Positions 1,317 through 20,790 of a stretch of DNA of 33,987 nt are shown here, piece after piece. Made by a program: the position numbers and the translations under genes. The stretch's first letter is position 1, and each line of letters starts with the position of its first letter. Under the pieces are notes generated by a model. The model was given only the letters and a program-made list of their open reading frames with translations. It searched no databases and was not told where the DNA came from. Source of the stretch: Gelidibacter salicanalis (GTDB taxonomy: Bacteria; Bacteroidota; Bacteroidia; Flavobacteriales; Flavobacteriaceae); the NCBI RefSeq assembly GCF_016469035.1, contig NZ_JAEHJZ010000054.1:4550-38536 (forward strand). The letters run 5' to 3'.

Positions 1317-3389
1317 ATGGCCTGGCGTAAAATTAGAAGCAACGTGAGATTAGGAGTAATAATGTTCATCATGGCATTATTTTTTAATATCCTTGTTTTA
1401 CAAATATTAAGTCCAATGCTTAACACTTATGACTTTGCCAGATTAAAATATAGAACTATGAACGAGCAGGACAAACACAAAGATGAACTTAGAGAGGAAT
1501 TAAACGAATTAGAGCAAGAATTTTTAAGTTCAATAAAAGATCTTGATCTCAACAAGCGCATTCAACTTAAGCAAGAATTAGCAATTGCTCTTCAGGGAAT
1601 TTCTTTAGAAAACGACGAGAAAACAAAACGTGCCACCGAATTAATAATTGCTAATTTGGAAGTAAAATTTCTGAATGAAGAAAAAGCGAATCGTGCGGCA
1701 GAGCTGGTTATAGCAAATATCGAACTTGTTTTTCAAAATAAGGAGAAGTCAAAGCGTGCAGCCGAATTAATTATTGCCAACAAAGAACTCCTCTTTCAAA
1801 ACGAAGAAAAAGAAAAACGTGCCGCAGAGTTGGTTATCGCAAATATTGAACTTGTCTTTCAAAATAAGGAAAAATCAGAACGTGCAGCCGCATTGATTAT
1901 TGCCAACAAAGAACTGCTTTTTCAAAATGAAGAAAAAGCAAAGCGTGCGGCAGAGCTGGCTATCGCAAATATTGAACTTGTCTTTCAAAATAAGGAGAAA
2001 TCAAGGCGTGCAGCCGAATTGAACATTGCCAATAAAGAGCTTGTCTTTCAAAATGCAGAAAAAGCGAAGCGTGCAGCAGAGTTAGATATAGCAAATATTG
2101 AACTTATTTTTCAAAATAAAGAGAAATCAAAGCGTGCAGCCGAATTAATTATTGCCAACAAAGAACTCCTCTTTCAAAACGAAGAAAAAGAAAAACGTGC
2201 AGCGGAACTAATCCAAGCAAAGGAAAAAGCAGAAGAAAGCGACCGATTAAAATCAGCATTTTTAGCTAATATGAGTCACGAGATACGCACTCCAATGAAT
2301 GGCATACTCGGTTTTACTGATTTATTGAGAGAGCCCGAACTAACAGGAGAAATACAGCAAGAGTATATCCGCATCATTAAAAAAAGCGGCGTGCGAATGC
2401 TCAATATAATTAATGATATTATTAGTATTTCAAAGATAGAATCGGGACAAGTGGAGGCTAATATTCAGGAATTCAATATTAACCACAGGATCCAATTCAT
2501 CTATAGCTTCTTCAAACCCGAGATTGAGAGAAAAGGAATTCTTTTTGAAACTAAAAACACGTTGCAGAATAAAGAAGCATTTATTAAATCTGACAGTGAA
2601 AAACTCTATTCAATTCTTACCAATCTGGTTAAAAATGCTATTAAACATACTGAAGAGGGCTCCATCGAATTGGGATATGTTGTAAAAACAGAAAACGAAC
2701 ATTCAGAATTGGAGTTTTATGTAAAAGACACAGGAATTGGGATACCCAAAGACAGACAGATGGCAATATTTGAGCGTTTCACACAAGCCGATATTTCAGA
2801 TGAAAAGGCATTTCAGGGCGCTGGTTTGGGCTTGTCAATTTCTAAAGCGTACGTAGAAATGCTTGGGGGAAAAATTAGGTTAGAAAGTGAAGAAGGAAAA
2901 GGTTCAATATTTTATTTTACACTTCCGTATCAGACAATACAACACCATAAAACCGTTAGTAAAACTAAGAATGTGTCTAAAAGAACTCAACTAAAGCTTG
3001 ATCCTCAAGCTTTGGGACTAAAAATATTAATTGTTGAGGACGATGCCATATCGAGAATGCTTATATCGGCTTTAGTAAAAGATTGTAGTTTGATGTTGTT
3101 TCAAGCAAAAACAGGTGTGGAAGCTGTAGATATATTCCGAAATAATCCTGATATTGATTTAATTCTGATGGATATTCAAATGCCTGTTTTGAATGGACTT
3201 GAAGCAACCAAACAAATTCGTCAATTTAACAACAAAGTTATAATAATAGCGCAGACAGCTTCTGGACTATCTGAAGAAAAAGAAAAGACAATTGAAGTGG
3301 GATGCAACGATTATATTTCAAAACCCATTAGCAAAGAAAAATTACTTGCATTGATACAAAAGCACATCAACAAATTATATGTTGCATGA
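1317..3389 (+). CDS. Hybrid sensor histidine kinase with 21-residue repeat helix
   Basis: This is a two-component hybrid kinase of 690 residues. One membrane helix (residues ~10-33) is followed by a long coiled coil that includes nine 21-residue repeats (105-293) of the form RAAELxIANxELxFQNxEK. The HisKA phosphoacceptor is His321 in [15 protein letters not shown]. The ATPase domain has the N box (NLVKNAIKH), G1 (DTGIGIP), F box (FERFTQAD) and G2 (GAGLGLSIS). A receiver domain at ~572-688 has phosphoacceptor Asp619 (LMDIQMPV) and a conserved Lys in SKPIS. There is no extracellular or PAS/GAF input domain, so the signal is unknown; the helix may sense membrane state or a partner. ATG 1317 is used because an in-frame TAA lies 15 bases upstream. 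No separate response regulator gene is adjacent. The family call is secure and the role unknown. Confidence 0.95.
1629..2195 (+). repeat. Nine tandem 63-bp repeats inside the kinase gene
   Basis: Nine full 63-bp units encode RAAEL...-type 21-residue repeats, and a tenth partial unit leads into the HisKA domain. Units alternate between an [14 protein letters not shown] form and an [14 protein letters not shown] form, so the effective period is 126 bp. Unit 3 and unit 9 plus flanks are identical over 72 bases (starting at 1749 and 2127, exactly 378 bp apart), which points to recent unequal exchange or gene conversion. Confidence 0.9.
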
Positions 3390-8867: not shown

Positions 8868-9339
8868 GTGTGCCGAGAGTAACGAGCGGCTAAAAATCGT
8901 TACGCAACTGTTTATAAGATGGTGGAACCGACCCACCAGTGTTGTCCTACAGGGGAGAGCATCAAACCACCATAAGGTGCTTTGGTAAAGAGCCAAGGTA
9001 TTGAGCGTTATGGAAAAGGCTACGCCATGAGCTGGTCAGGTATAAATAATGGAGATGAACCGGCCTATGCTGGCAGGTACAAATGAACCTCTGGTGAAGT
9101 GTAAATAAAGTGCTACATTCTGTCAAAAGTGTTTGAAGTATTACAAACATTATAAGTTCTGTGGCTACCTGTTTAATGGTTGGGCGGCATGCGTCATTTA
9201 GGAAACATAACTTTTTTTGGGCTTATAAATTTAACTCGGGACCTATACGATAATGCAATGGGAAATGTTTAATAAGATCAACGTAGAGCCAGAATACTGA
9301 CGTATTATACAGAGATGGACTCATCCGAAGTAGTGATGA

Positions 9340-15460: not shown

Positions 15461-17167
15461 TCAAATGCCGTTGACATATATCTTATTGAATTTACGTTTC
15501 ATTTCGATGTTTCCAAGCATGACTATTTCAGCTCCATGAGGAAGTATGGTTTGTGCCGATAACAACGTCACTACTTCAGAATTTTCTTTTATTGCAATGA
15601 CAGATAATCCCGTTTTAGCGCCAATACCAGATTCTGCAAGGGACTTACCCTCTAGTGATTTTGGTATCGGGATTATAAACAAGGTAAAACCCTCCCCAAG
15701 AACGGTTAGTTCCTGGTTTTTAGAAATCGATAAAACGGCTTCAGAACCTAATGTGGAGAAGCTTAATACAAAATTAGCGCCTGCCTTTTGAATGATATCA
15801 ACATTTCGAGCTTCGGATATACGGCTCACTATTCTTACATCCTTGTTCAATTGACGACAATAGGAGGCGAGATAAATGTTCATGGTGTCGTCATGGGTAG
15901 ACAATAATACCGAAGGTGCTTCTAGAATTCCTGCTCTTTTTAGTAATTGGTAATCGGAGGCATCACCCGAAAATACCTTATTGCAAAAAGGACTTACTTT
16001 TTTGCATATCTCCGGATCCTTGTCCACGACATTTACTAAGACGCCATTTTTATGTAAAGATTTTGCAGCCGCCAATCCTACCCGGCCCGCTCCGATTAAC
16101 AATACAGGATGTGGGTTTACATCGTAATCATGGAAGAGCTCATCAATGTTTTTGAGCTGTTCTTTATGTCCTATGATGACTAATATGCTTTCCTGTGTTA
16201 GTCTTTCCTTACCGGTTATAGGTTGCAATCTGCCTCGCTCCCAAATGCCCACAATACTGACCCCGAATCGTTGTCTTAATTCCGTCTCCCGGATAAGTTT
16301 TGACACCAAAGGGGTGTTGTAGATTGGTAATTCTGCAATCAATAGATCTTCATATTGACCTATGGCATGAGACTCTGCATGTTGTGTGTTTACCCTATTT
16401 GCCAATTGTTCGCCCAGCCATTTTTTTACAGGCAACACGTGGTCCGCGCCGCTTAGTTTCTGCACATCTACGGAATCAATATCAGTCGCTATGGCAACAA
16501 TGGGAATCGTGGGGGCAATTTCCCTGATAGTGAGTATGATTTTGGTATTTAAAAAATCATCTCTATTAATCAAAACCAGTTTTGCATCTTTAATATTGGC
16601 AAGGATAAAGGTTTCCTTGTCATCCAATTCCCCAAGTAGTACAGAAACATGTTCATCATGATTTTTAATCGCTTTTTCTATATCGTTTTCAATGACATAA
16701 TAAGGAGTTTTCTCCTGCTTCAATCGCTTTGTAAGATCTCTTGCTATGACATCATAAGAACATATTAAGATGTGATTTTTTGTTCCGGCAGGCACCTGAC
16801 GAAGCACCTTGTTTTTCTTTTTTGACTCTAGAAGAGGGATATAAAAGTGCCTAATAAAGGCAAACGGCAATACAATCATTAACATGAAAATGCCAGAAAG
16901 TAATACGACAATACTGAAAAAGCGACCCAGATCGGATGCAAATGTAATATCACCGAAACCAAGGGTACTCATAACCGTAAGTGTCCAATAGAAGCCTGTA
17001 ACCCAGGAGTGATTTTGGTTTTCAGACGCCATTATAAAATGGAAAAGAACAGAATAAATGACGATGACAACTCCTAAGAGAGCTAAATATTTAAGTAAGA
17101 CCTTAGAGTTTCTTTTAAAGTCTCTGTCGCCCATATAATAGGCCAACTGACTACCGATAAATTTCAT
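15461..17167 (-). CDS. Two-helix potassium channel with two cytoplasmic RCK (TrkA-type) domains
   Basis: A 568-residue ligand-gated K+ channel subunit of the inner membrane. TM1 is ~25-46, the pore loop carries the filter T68-L-G-F-G-D73, and TM2 is ~82-107. The first TrkA-N-like domain (~130-255) lacks the glycine-rich GxGxxG (it reads HILICSYDVIARDL), and a TrkA-C-like part follows (~270-335). The second TrkA-N has the intact G359-A-G-R-V-G364 with an acidic VVDKDPE strand, so it can bind a nucleotide, and is followed by a second TrkA-C (~480-560). Channels of this layout normally assemble as tetramers gated by nucleotides or ions. Start ATG at 17167 is clear. It is a single-gene unit. Confidence 0.93.
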   Translation of the reverse strand: MKFIGSQLAYYMGDRDFKRNSKVLLKYLALLGVVIVIYSVLFHFIMASENQNHSWVTGFYWTLTVMSTLGFGDITFASDLGRFFSIVVLLSGIFMLMIVLPFAFIRHFYIPLLESKKKNKVLRQVPAGTKNHILICSYDVIARDLTKRLKQEKTPYYVIENDIEKAIKNHDEHVSVLLGELDDKETFILANIKDAKLVLINRDDFLNTKIILTIREIAPTIPIVAIATDIDSVDVQKLSGADHVLPVKKWLGEQLANRVNTQHAESHAIGQYEDLLIAELPIYNTPLVSKLIRETELRQRFGVSIVGIWERGRLQPITGKERLTQESILVIIGHKEQLKNIDELFHDYDVNPHPVLLIGAGRVGLAAAKSLHKNGVLVNVVDKDPEICKKVSPFCNKVFSGDASDYQLLKRAGILEAPSVLLSTHDDTMNIYLASYCRQLNKDVRIVSRISEARNVDIIQKAGANFVLSFSTLGSEAVLSISKNQELTVLGEGFTLFIIPIPKSLEGKSLAESGIGAKTGLSVIAIKENSEVVTLLSAQTILPHGAEIVMLGNIEMKRKFNKIYVNGI

Positions 17168-17257
17168 ATTCTGTTTTTTAAAAGGGTTGCAATTTGGTCA
17201 TTCGGATTCTAATCTATGGAATTTAATTCAGGTTTTGCTGTTTGATTAAGAAGTTTT

Positions 17258-17265
17258 CAAATATA
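17258..17265 (-). promoter_or_regulatory. Candidate -7 box TATATTTG for the potassium channel
   Basis: Read on the minus strand, TATATTTG fits TAnnTTTG and lies about 90 bases before the channel start. A TTG 14 bases upstream is too close for a normal -33 box and no better one is clear, so support is partial. Confidence 0.4.
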
Positions 17266-17441
17266 ATATTCTAAAGCGCCAAGAAAGTATCTTTTTGAGA
17301 AAAAATAAGGCAATGCTTTAAAGCAGTCCAACGATAAATAATCAAAACAAATTGCAAAGCTTCATTTTGAGCCACCGCAAGGTGTCCATTTATACTTGTA
17401 TTAATTAGGTTTTCTTACGCTTTCCAATTTAGGCGCATTTT

Positions 17442-19290
17442 ACGCCGCTGTTGGTGTTTTTCACCAACAGCATTCATTGTCTATTCATTTGACATTTTAA
17501 TGTTATTTGGTTGAAGTGCTTTATGTTTTATTTTCAGGTAATTATTGGTTAAAACATTAGTTCTGGCTGTTTGTGAGGTGTAGTAAGGTTAAACAAAAAT
17601 TGTTGGTGGAAAACACCAACAATGGCTCAAAGGATTCTATTGCACTTTTTACGCCGCTGTCGGTGTTTTTCACCAAAAGCATTCATTGTCTATTCATTTT
17701 GACATTTTAATATTATTTGGTCGAAGTGCTTTATGTTTTATTCAAGCAATTATAGGTCAAAACATTAGTTCTGGCTGTGTGGGAGGTGTCGTAAGTTTAA
17801 ACAAAAATTGTTGATGGAAAATACCAGCAATGGCTCAAGGGATTCTATTGCACTTTTTACGCCGCTGTCGGTGTTTTTCACCAACAGCATTCATAGTCTA
17901 TTCATTTTGACATTTTAATGTTATTTGGTTGAAGTGCTTTATGTTTTATTCAAGCAATTATAGGTCAAAACATTAGTTCTGGACGTTTGTGAGGTGTCGG
18001 AAGGTAAAACAAAAATTGTTGGTGGAAAACACCAACAATGGCTCAAGGGATTCTATTGCACTTTTTACGCCGCTGTTGGTGTTTTTCACCAACAGCATTC
18101 ATTGTCTATTCATTTGACATTTTAATGTTATTTGGTTGAAGTGCTTTATGTTTTATTCAAGCAATTATAGGTCAAAACATTAGTTTTGGCTGTGTGGGAG
18201 GTGTCGTAAGTTTAAACAAAAATTGTTGGTGGAAAACACCAACAATGGCTCAAGGGATTCTATTGCACTTTTTACGCCGCTGTTGGTGTTTTTCACCAAC
18301 AGCATTCATTGTCTATTCATTTTGACATTTTAATATTATTTGGTCGAAGTGCTTTATGTTTTATTCAAGCAATTAGAGGTCAAAACATTAGTTCTGGCTG
18401 TTTGTGAGATGTTGGAAAGTAAACAAAAATTGTTGGTGGAAAACACCAACAATGGCTCAAGGGATTCTATTGCACTTTTTACGCCGCTGTTGGTGTTTTT
18501 CACCAACCGTATTCATAGTCTATTCATTTGACATTTTAATGTTTTTTGAGTTGAAGTGCTTTATGTTTTATTCAAGCAATTAGAGGTCAAAACATTAGTT
18601 CTGGCTGTGTGGGAGGTGTCGTAAGGTTAAACAAAAATTGTTGGTGGAAAACACCAACAATGGCTCAAGGGATTCTATTACACTTTTTACGCCGCTGTTG
18701 GTGTTTTTCACCAACAGCATTCATAGTCTATTCATTTTGATATTTTAATGTTATTTGGTTGAAGTGCTTTATGTTTTATTCAAGCAATTATAGGTCAAAA
18801 CATTAGTTCTGGACGTTTGTGAGGTGTCGGAAGGTTAAACAAAAATTGTTGGTGGAAAACACCAACAATGGCTCAAGGGATTCTATTGCACTTTTTACGC
18901 CGCTGTTGGTGTTTTTCACCAACCGCATTCATTGTCTATTCATTTGACATTTTAATGTTATTTGGTTGAAGTGCTTTATGTTTTATTCAAGCAATTATAG
19001 GTCAAAACATTAGTTTTGGCTGTGTGGGAGGTGTCGTAAGTTTAAACAAAAATTGTTGGTGGAAAACACCAACAATGGCTCAAAGGATTCTATTGCACTT
19101 TTTACGCCGCTGTTGGTGTTTTTCACCAACAGCATTCATAGTCTATTCATTTTGACATTTTAATGTTATTTGGTTGAAGTGCTTTATGTTTTATTCAAGC
19201 AATTAGAGGTCAAAACATTAGTTCTAGCTGTTTGTGAGGTGTCGTAAGTTTAAACAAAAATTGTTGGTGGAAAACACCAACAATGGCTCA
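17442..19290. repeat. Nine-copy ~208-bp tandem array of inverted hairpin pairs
   Basis: The marker ACGCCGCTG starts units at 17442, 17651, 17859, 18067, 18274, 18481, 18689, 18897 and 19104, spaced 207-209 bases. Each unit has hairpin B (arms GCTGTTGGTG and CACCAACAGC, loop TTTTT), a ~150-base linker, hairpin A (arms ATTGTTGGTG and CACCAACAAT, loop GAAAA), then a ~34-base spacer to the next B. B is close to the reverse complement of A, so neighbouring A and B could also form one ~20-bp stem. Unit 1 is the most divergent; the array ends after the ninth A hairpin. Period and stops in all frames argue against a protein. It resembles BIME/REPIN-type arrays, but no transposase lies in the window. 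Confidence 0.95.
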
Positions 19291-19318
19291 AATGGAAATT
19301 ATAAATAAAACCTATTGC

Positions 19319-19374
19319 CAATAACTAACATCCGTGTGGCTGATAGGCCAGAGCTGAATACTTCTTAGTTATTG
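19319..19374 (-). repeat. attC-like palindromic element (copy c)
   Basis: Ten-base perfect outer arms CAATAACTAA (19319-19328) and TTAGTTATTG (19365-19374) enclose an inner GGCTGATAGGCCAGAGC part. On the minus strand it reads CAATAACTAAGAAGTATT, as in the copies at 3848 and 12727. Its outer arm supplies the last two Asn codons and the stop of the methyltransferase. Confidence 0.6.
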
Positions 19375-20006
19375 ACCATAATACTTTTCCGTAAAACTAT
19401 TCCAATCAGCCGAGGAATTCCCCTTTGGTTTTCCTCGTCAAACCACTCCTTAAATTCTATTAATTCAAATCCGTATTTATTTGCGTGGTTCATGTATTCA
19501 GAAAGGTGATGAGTATAAGTTTCTAATTCTTGCGTCCCGTTTTCAGTCTCAAATTTTGCTTTACTACCGGAATATTGTTTAAACGGATGAAGTTCGCTGA
19601 TAAAGAAATGCCCACCTATTTTTAATTTTTTTCTCGCTTGGTCAAAAATGAAACTTATATTTTCTATGTGTTCAAGTACTAAACTACATGTTATCAAATC
19701 CCAATAATCATCTTCAATATTCCATTGGATTGTTAGATCCGCTTTTATAAATTCCGCTCGTTTATCCTTGATTTTGGATCTGGCTTTGTCCAACATTTTT
19801 TGCGAAAAGTCCAATCCAATTACTTTATCTGCTTTCTGTAATAAATAAGCAGTGTTTTTACCAGTTCCGCAACCCAGCTCGATAACTTTTAAAAAATCAA
19901 TTCCTTTTAGCGTTTCGAAAGTAGATTTCGCATCTAAATCTCTGGTCTTATTCATATTTGTATCATATTGGCCAGCCCAATTATTATATGCTTTTTCAAT
20001 AGTCAT
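19365..20006 (-). CDS. Class I SAM-dependent methyltransferase
   Basis: A 213-residue soluble methyltransferase of the Methyltransf_11/25 type. Motif I is VIELGCGTGKN (~41-51), the acidic residue after strand 2 is in VIGLDFSQKML, motif II-like is IKADLTIQW, and motif IV-like is DLITCSLVLEHIEN, followed by GGHFFISELHPF. The substrate cannot be deduced; this group methylates small molecules. The final MVNN before the stop comes from the flanking palindromic element, so the original end may have been at IVLRKS. It lies alone, between the hairpin array and a decayed DUF5694 gene on the same strand (40 bases upstream). The start ATG at 20006 gives a normal MTIEKAYNNWAGQYD opening. Confidence 0.88.
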   Translation of the reverse strand: MTIEKAYNNWAGQYDTNMNKTRDLDAKSTFETLKGIDFLKVIELGCGTGKNTAYLLQKADKVIGLDFSQKMLDKARSKIKDKRAEFIKADLTIQWNIEDDYWDLITCSLVLEHIENISFIFDQARKKLKIGGHFFISELHPFKQYSGSKAKFETENGTQELETYTHHLSEYMNHANKYGFELIEFKEWFDEENQRGIPRLIGIVLRKSIMVNN

Positions 20007-20045
20007 TCTCTAATTTTTTTTAGTATTAAATTTTAAATCAAACAA

Positions 20046-20790
20046 CTATTTTACACTAGATTGACAATGGTGTCCATTTAAATAATCATTTATCTGTATT
20101 AGTTTATATTCTGGAGAAGCTTCAAAGAAAATAGCTTCAGGTTGTGCATGAATGCGTTGTATATATCTAAAGATCCTCAAATTTCTATTAAACCACCACA
20201 ACGTGGCAAAGTCTGGTTCTAATTGTCCGTTTTCATTTGTCTCATATTAAAGATTCCCAATAAATAGTCACCTAATCCCCTTTTAGCATGCTTCGGTATT
20301 TAATCTCTTTAATGCTGCCAAAACACCTTCAGTCTTAAACAAACGTTTTCCTTTAAATAGGAAGCTGAAATAATATCTGGATTCTTATGGAAATAATCTC
20401 TAAATTTTCATTTCTCAATTGAGTCATTTCCCTCGAAAATTCTTTTAGCATCTTCATAATCTCTATCCCAGGCATCAGTACAATATAATCTTTTCAAACC
20501 CCTACGTTTGGTTATTATAAATCCTATTTGTTGTTCTTCACTCCTTGTTAGTGTATGCACCCCGTTTATGTAGGACATGTACAGAGAATCATATTCTTGT
20601 TGTTTTTCAGGCTCTCTTTCAATAACAATCTTGTTAGGTTTAAATTTACCAAGTTTATCCACAATTAATTCAATTTCTTTTTGATAGTTGAATATAAAAC
20701 ATCAATTTGATCATGAACATCTGTTTTAGCAATATCAAGATTTGGAAACTTAAAGTGAAAAATGCCGAGTGTTAGAACTTTAATGGGTTC
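20046..20790 (-). pseudogene. Decayed DUF5694-type gene
   Basis: Pieces of one protein appear in order on the minus strand in different frames. KVLTLGIFHFKFPNLDIA is the start (20790-20680). Then DKLGKFKPNKIVIEREPEKQ leads into ITKRRGLKRLYCTDAWDRD (20662-20408). GDYLLGIF and ETNENGQLEPDFATLWWFNR lead to RNLRIFRYIQRIHAQ and a SPEYKLIQINDYLNG end with stop at 20046-20048. This is the pattern of the DUF5694 family (about 250-280 residues, function unknown). Several frameshifts and a missing section before the C-terminal strand make it non-functional. The N-terminus lacks a start codon: a TAA lies just upstream of the first recognisable residues. Confidence 0.75.

Follow-up and report, generated by a model that had tools for sequence, protein, structure and literature searches.

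The window, a 33,987-nucleotide stretch of the Gelidibacter salicanalis genome, contains a tandem array of nine hairpin-bearing units that is very probably the local expansion of a nonautonomous mobile element of the REPIN kind, whose likely partner, a REP-associated tyrosine transposase (RAYT; HUH/Y1), has its gene on contig C78 of the assembly. The units are built from inverted REP pairs, the hairpin is dispersed in the genome, and an uninterrupted RAYT gene lies among hairpins of the same type. The likeness to REP/BIME (REPIN) organization proposed in an earlier, sequence-only reading was therefore right. No host function is needed to explain the array.

Anatomy and surroundings of the array

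Tandem repeat analysis of the window with TRF places the array at 17438 to 19291 (+ strand), with a period of 208, 8.9 copies, and 93% matches. A hairpin-by-hairpin table resolves it into nine units, each 181 to 183 bp long when counted from GCC to GGC and separated from the next by 26 nt (eight such stretches), so that the nine-unit array with a period of ~208 bp described earlier is real. Its layout is (E X)8 E, where E is a REPIN-like unit of ~182 bp and X is a spacer of ~22 nt. Each E consists of two inverted REP hairpins with their feet outward that enclose a body of ~125 nt, and each REP has a GCC tag and a 10-bp stem (TGTTGGTG/CACCAACA) with a 5-nt loop. The A hairpin reads GCC GCTGTTGGTG-TTTTT-CACCAACAGC and the B hairpin reads ATTGTTGGTG-GAAAA-CACCAACAAT GGC; B is an A-type hairpin turned round, with GCC at the outer foot in both. 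The inverted pair is found in 9/9 units. Two hairpins per unit, as first described, were thus confirmed, although pairing is full in only 13 of the 18 stems (5/9 for A and 8/9 for B) rather than in all of them. The ~34 bases that had been taken for the spacer from A to B in fact lie between B and the A that follows (32 nt from the B4 stem to the A5 stem), whereas A and B within unit 4 are 125 nt apart.

All nine copies lie on the + strand. Copy 1 (17444 to 17626; REP A at 17444 to 17471 and inverted REP B at 17599 to 17626) is by eye the most divergent and is followed by the first of the eight 26-nt stretches (17627 to 17652), which consists of TCAA plus X and ends in TTTTTAC. In copy 2 (17653 to 17834), the stems are mutated, with 2 and 3 mismatches. 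The remaining units are copy 3 (17861 to 18042), copy 4 (18069 to 18249), which was also used for folding, copy 5 (18276 to 18456), copy 6 (18483 to 18664), copy 7 (18691 to 18872), copy 8 (18899 to 19079), and copy 9 (19106 to 19287). Spacer X is confined to the interior of the array (17627 to 19105) and is absent both to the left of copy 1 and to the right of copy 9; thus, the founding flank is not seen. No open reading frame (ORF) of ≥100 aa overlaps the array, in agreement with the earlier statement that no frame is coding, but ORFs of ≥60 aa take in 192 bp of it. No Rfam family matched the array at gathering scores.

Pfam identifies the neighboring genes as encoding an ion channel with TrkA domains (15461 to 17167, − strand) and a methyltransferase-domain protein (19365 to 20006, − strand). 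Beside the same channel gene in seven same-genus genomes, no array was found, nor any hairpin within 1.5 kb of the gene start, and the right flank of the window array has no match at that locus. No clean empty site was found, as synteny breaks both at the window locus and at the second locus tried. The genome is a 5.16-Mb draft in 682 contigs with 2.55% contamination, and the length of the array and the linkage of contigs rest on its assembly. Elsewhere in the window, positions 592 to 710 and 8921 to 9041 match the Rfam group-II-D1D4-2 intron model (89.3 and 98.7 bits). A 63/126-bp tandem repeat (1677 to 2212) lies within an ORF of 690 aa (1317 to 3389) that by eye appears histidine kinase-like and in which the repeat yields a recurring AAEL.IAN.EL motif.

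Each unit had also been proposed to switch between two small stems and one long joined stem. With DNA parameters, separate hairpins are favored (−21.9 versus −15.7 kcal/mol). With RNA parameters applied to isolated segments, the minimum-energy fold is the joined stem with extra pairing (−39.9 kcal/mol for B4-A5 and −65.2 kcal/mol for A4 to B4); the long stem alone gives −28.8 or −27.4, and two hairpins alone give −32.1. In a 226-nt piece containing A4, B4, and half of A5, the hairpins fold separately, and the minus strand of the same piece folds into the long joined stem. These predicted folds make it possible that both states form, but they do not demonstrate a switch between them. For the small-RNA or boundary role that had been suggested, we found no support.

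The hairpin family and its transposase

The hairpin is dispersed in its own genome. With at most one mismatch, 101 sites were found, compared with 1 for the reversed pattern, and the whole unit has 36 matches, including the nine of the array and many that are partial. The unit body recurs at C651, C273, and C284, while the copies at C78, C325, and C392 appear by eye to have the same hairpin with other bodies. Inverted REP pairs also occur at other loci of this genome, along with single and direct REPs. At one of these contigs (L049:2295-2560; G000:C284:98795-99060), there is another interspersed repeat of ~240 bp, outside the window, with about 29 further matches listed in the same genome and many in G001.

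Beyond this genome, the pattern GCC-NN-TGTTGGTG-N5-CACCAACA was found in at least 118 stretches of genome contigs; among the matches listed, 117 come from named taxa that we take to be Bacteroidota and 1 comes from an Ignavibacteria metagenome-assembled genome (MAG). The exact hairpin is present in 6 of 392 genomes of a phylum sample, its own genome included, and unit or hairpin matches occur in seven of nine same-genus genomes. When the genome was searched without GCC in the pattern, most of the hairpins displayed carried GCC; several later patterns had GCC built in, so its conservation there is partly a product of the search. The tag at the feet is GCC, and no GTAG tag was seen there.

The pattern places no constraint on two pairs at the foot, and these are Watson-Crick in 147/170 and 161/170 hairpins of the named stretches, compared with 46.6 and 91.5 of 170 expected for independent columns; all four pair types occur, and, because REP copies are mutually related, these counts represent nonindependent events. 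The foot pairs thus covary and the unit has matches elsewhere, so that a chance minisatellite, which the sequence-only reading had tied to a unit found only here with freely varying arms, is not supported. The hairpins also avoid ORFs and are mostly extragenic. Only 32 of 215 lie in mechanically called ORFs of ≥150 aa, though such ORFs cover 73% of the bases, and in the hairpins' own genome, the count is 0/81 with an ORF coverage of 63% (again with mechanical ORFs).

In several of the named stretches, ORFs with an HUH motif lie between hairpins, and a tblastn search with one of them revealed a relative in the G. salicanalis genome, at C78, with 56% identity. This RAYT gene (L045:2698-3204, − strand) lies within a cluster of 15 hairpins of the same type. 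The earlier statement that no REP transposase is present therefore holds for the window but not for the assembly. The C78 protein has 169 aa, is uninterrupted, keeps the HUH and Y residues, and carries the motifs NHIH, WQ, and YIHQNP. Its score against the NCBIfam model REP_Tyr_transpos (NF047646) is 67.3 bits, below the cutoff of 80; two of three relatives pass (L107 with 88.7 and L072 with 85.7) and the third, L139 (60.7), falls below it. PF01797 alone misses the C78 RAYT (15.8 bits; cutoff, 23). The sole PDB match of an alignment of ten RAYTs, in which the L072 row starts without an ATG and the L179 row is without its N terminus, is TnpArep (4er8; E = 2e-5). Around the RAYT gene (L045:1900-3900; G000:C78), half-hairpins (GGAAAACACCAACATTGGCA) recur beside whole REPs.

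The tyrosine transposase was also looked for, as had been suggested, in other genomes carrying the hairpin. In a sample of 14 genomes chosen for the hairpin, 30 matches to a RAYT model were returned as loci. The hairpin lies alongside 10/10 RAYT loci with ≥250 bits, although six of these (L302 to L306 and L316) were known beforehand and only L307 to L310 are new, and it lies alongside 0/12 full RAYTs with ≤130 bits. At eight of the ten top loci, there is one hairpin on each side with its foot outward. Eight intermediate or partial loci have the hairpin in five cases and lack it in three; L311 and L318 (179 and 185 bits) and the partial L329 are without such a hairpin. In nine of the hairpin genomes (the 14 minus the five that gave rows to the RAYT model), six have a RAYT with >150 bits, compared with 13 of the 391 other genomes of the phylum sample (Fisher's exact test, 3.8e-7). 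Matches to the model at E ≤ 1e-3 are found in 186 of the 392 phylum-sample genomes; many are distant, and the nearer ones have other stems.

The hairpin changes along with its RAYT. Of 11 more distant RAYT loci, 8 have one or more hairpins (arm of 9 or more, loop of 3 to 5) within 300 bp of the gene, and over all 11 there are 22 hairpins in the 6,600 bp near the gene versus 5 in the 26,400 bp farther away. Where stems were seen at these loci, they differ from that of the window array. Among the 10 genomes of the genus, a high-scoring RAYT (273 bits) is found only in the genome of the array itself. The RAYTs of G004 and G008 score ~104 to 112 bits, that of G009 is an interrupted remnant, and hairpins but no RAYT match are found in G001 and G002. 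Because the hairpins persist in these last two genomes without a close RAYT, present activity is not established.

Origin and growth of the array

As the most probable course of events, we infer that the C78 RAYT, a single-domain HUH/Y1 nuclease, would recognize the GCC-tagged hairpin in single-stranded DNA and would cut and rejoin beside it, thereby spreading REPs and REPINs. Two REPINs would then have inserted 26 nt apart in the same direction, and the ~182-bp copies would have expanded by unequal recombination or slippage into (E X)8 E, with REP feet at the outer edges.

Other origins have to be weighed against this one. IS200/IS605 elements and their gene-less derivatives depend on an HUH/Y1 nuclease and have subterminal hairpins, and at C651 an IS200/IS605 transposase gene (P0001; 131 bits) lies between the halves of a unit copy. 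The units might therefore be read as gene-less derivatives of this insertion sequence (IS). We consider this very unlikely, as the P0001 copies at C540 and C1 align with that at C651 over 581 bp (91% and 98%) but lack the unit body and the hairpins. Furthermore, among nine same-genus genomes, P0001 has a close match only in G006 (84%, interrupted) and a weaker one in G008 (49%, interrupted), whereas unit or hairpin matches occur in seven. P0001 was thus rejected as the mobilizer: the lack of unit ends at C540 and C1 indicates that the IS inserted into the unit. The C651 locus (L044:7655-8128; G000:C651) accordingly represents a REPIN unit interrupted by an IS200/IS605-type IS whose other copies lie at C540 and C1. 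The hairpins of the window array also differ from those of IS200/IS605 elements in being inverted with their feet outward, and their probable partner protein is recognized by the RAYT model and not by the IS200 model.

A scan of positions 17000 to 20100 predicted 11 terminator-like sites, compared with 2.1 ± 1.3 in shuffled sequences, and on the minus strand 8/9 B hairpins resemble terminators. One of them, in copy 9 (19260 to 19284, − strand), runs into TTTTGTTTAA and lies downstream of the methyltransferase gene. From these predictions, it is plausible that B hairpins act as terminators on the minus strand, and the array may end transcription from the methyltransferase gene. That the hairpins are kept mainly for this purpose, with the array as a terminator cassette between two genes, is nevertheless also very unlikely, if slightly less so than descent from P0001: only 3/9 A hairpins score as terminators, with poor T tails, and the GCC tag, the inverted pairing, the linkage to RAYTs, and the nine copies would be left unexplained. 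The hairpins may be terminators secondarily. A minisatellite produced by slippage, with no mobile origin, is the least credible of these readings. The copy number must owe something to slippage or recombination, but the dispersed copies, the covariation, and the RAYT linkage refute a minisatellite as the sole explanation. Expansion of a REPIN thus accounts best for the array.

Tandem arrays are not peculiar to the window. In the named stretches, tandem arrays (period, ≥60) make up 1.5% of the bases and contain 56/250 hairpins, from 9/118 loci; at 19 own-genome loci, picked for hairpins or transposases, 37/72 hairpins lie in such arrays, compared with 7% of the bases. At 23 loci, most of them ~3 kb long, from relatives in the genus and from G032, TRF found no array of period ≥60, and 0/41 hairpins are in arrays; in each of the 8-kb genus records L099 and L106, it found one array.

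The edges of these arrays show a polarity with respect to the hairpin. A looser first test, which allowed 12 nt to either side, counted 13/38 edges versus 7.4 expected (P = 0.02). In 19 hairpin arrays, 14/37 edges lie ≤8 nt outside a GCC foot and 3 lie at the other hairpin end, with 3.4 expected for each; this comparison is post hoc, and two edges count as both. The criterion was then fixed before 33 new loci gave 13 arrays, 11 of them with a hairpin. In this held-out set, 9/22 edges lie at the GCC foot, compared with 1.84 expected (simulated P = 4e-5), and 1 lies at the opposite end of the hairpin, although seven of the 11 arrays come from one genome, that of Chryseolinea serpens. In 8/22 compared pairs, the stretch in common beyond the foot measures exactly 5 nt, and in 4/22 it is zero; the L044 row was left out of this comparison, and the inner partner of L293 is not a clean REP.

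If two REPs recombined, one edge would carry a foot and the opposite edge the other hairpin end. Since foot edges are in excess and other-end edges are not, the breaks can be read as starting at the tagged foot, as by an enzyme that reads the tag. This excess suggests that RAYT cutting would start local amplification. Arrays of the REP family would then begin not with random duplication but with a RAYT cut ~5 nt beyond the GCC foot, with rejoining or repair synthesis as the next step. We regard this as a tentative reading that is rather less probable than its opposite. The edge counts of both tests and the recurrent 5-nt run favor it, but several observations weigh against it, among them the modest result of the looser test, the dominance of a single genome in the held-out set, and the pairs that share no base outside the foot. 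The bases outside GCC are pyrimidine rich, so that the shared run may partly be the REP itself. For the window array, which has feet at both edges, recombination alone suffices. A fuller version, in which the RAYT drives local amplification by a nick ~5 nt outside the foot and rejoining or repair synthesis recopies the hairpin with its flank into foot-anchored arrays, is perhaps a shade more doubtful. Foot cutting would in any case add to the REPIN explanation of the array and not replace it.

Relation to known REP systems

Both the REP/REPIN kind and tandem REPIN clusters are already known; newer are the GCC tag, its occurrence across the phylum, and the array edges at the GCC foot. In a literature search, mainly of open-access texts, we recognized no account of GCC-tagged Bacteroidota REPs or of foot-anchored arrays. 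The main text of Bertels and Rainey (2011; PMC3116915) describes tandem clusters of REPINs with their flanks in Pseudomonas fluorescens SBW25, so that the tandem array is less unusual than had been claimed. The largest REPIN cluster in the part of that work consulted contains four REPINs plus one REP, and REP arrays there reach 12. The Pseudomonas REPINs and RAYTs, as described there, resemble the present system in their inverted REP pairs, dispersal, nonautonomy, RAYT in the genome, and tandem clusters with flanks, whereas the window array differs in its GCC tag, TGTTGGTG stem, ~182-bp unit, nine copies, and occurrence in Bacteroidota. A second mechanism was inferred for the SBW25 clusters, and RAYT-driven amplification could conceivably be that mechanism, with the same reservations as for the amplification itself.

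Tagged palindromes with GTAG or CGTC occur singly, as dimers, and in clusters that are repeated together with their flanking DNA, the CGTC type in Bacteroidetes, according to the sections consulted of Di Nocera et al. (2013; PMC3733652). The REPs described here are similar in being tagged palindromes that form clusters with flanking DNA but differ in their GCC tag and in having no GTAG at their feet. For the E. coli TnpA-REP, cutting of the REP at CT beside the hairpin is described in the portion consulted of PMC8266576, where GTAG is crucial. The polarity of array edges makes the growth of REP and REPIN clusters testable with one protein and short single-stranded DNAs.

Also among the closest known systems are the proteins of TnpA-Y1 subclass 2.6 (Bertels group 5), which the portion consulted of Quentin et al. 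(2018; PMC6006769) characterizes by the motifs NH[LIV]H, WQ, and YIH[QN]NP, occurrence in Bacteroidetes, a median length of 179 aa, and flanking "atypical secondary structures" with copies elsewhere in the genome. By its motifs, the C78 protein fits this Bacteroidetes subclass, and it is similar also in its length, its host phylum, and its flanking structures with genome copies. Some of the ten aligned relatives depart from the subclass motifs (SHVH and THFH; YIHYNP and YIHANP). The flanks here differ from those structures, as characterized there, in being plain GCC-tagged hairpins, and the comparison of the proteins is by motifs. Subclass 2.6, with its "atypical" flanking structures, thus gains a concrete hairpin, GCC with the TGTTGGTG stem, which is found in several Bacteroidota lineages and changes as its protein does.
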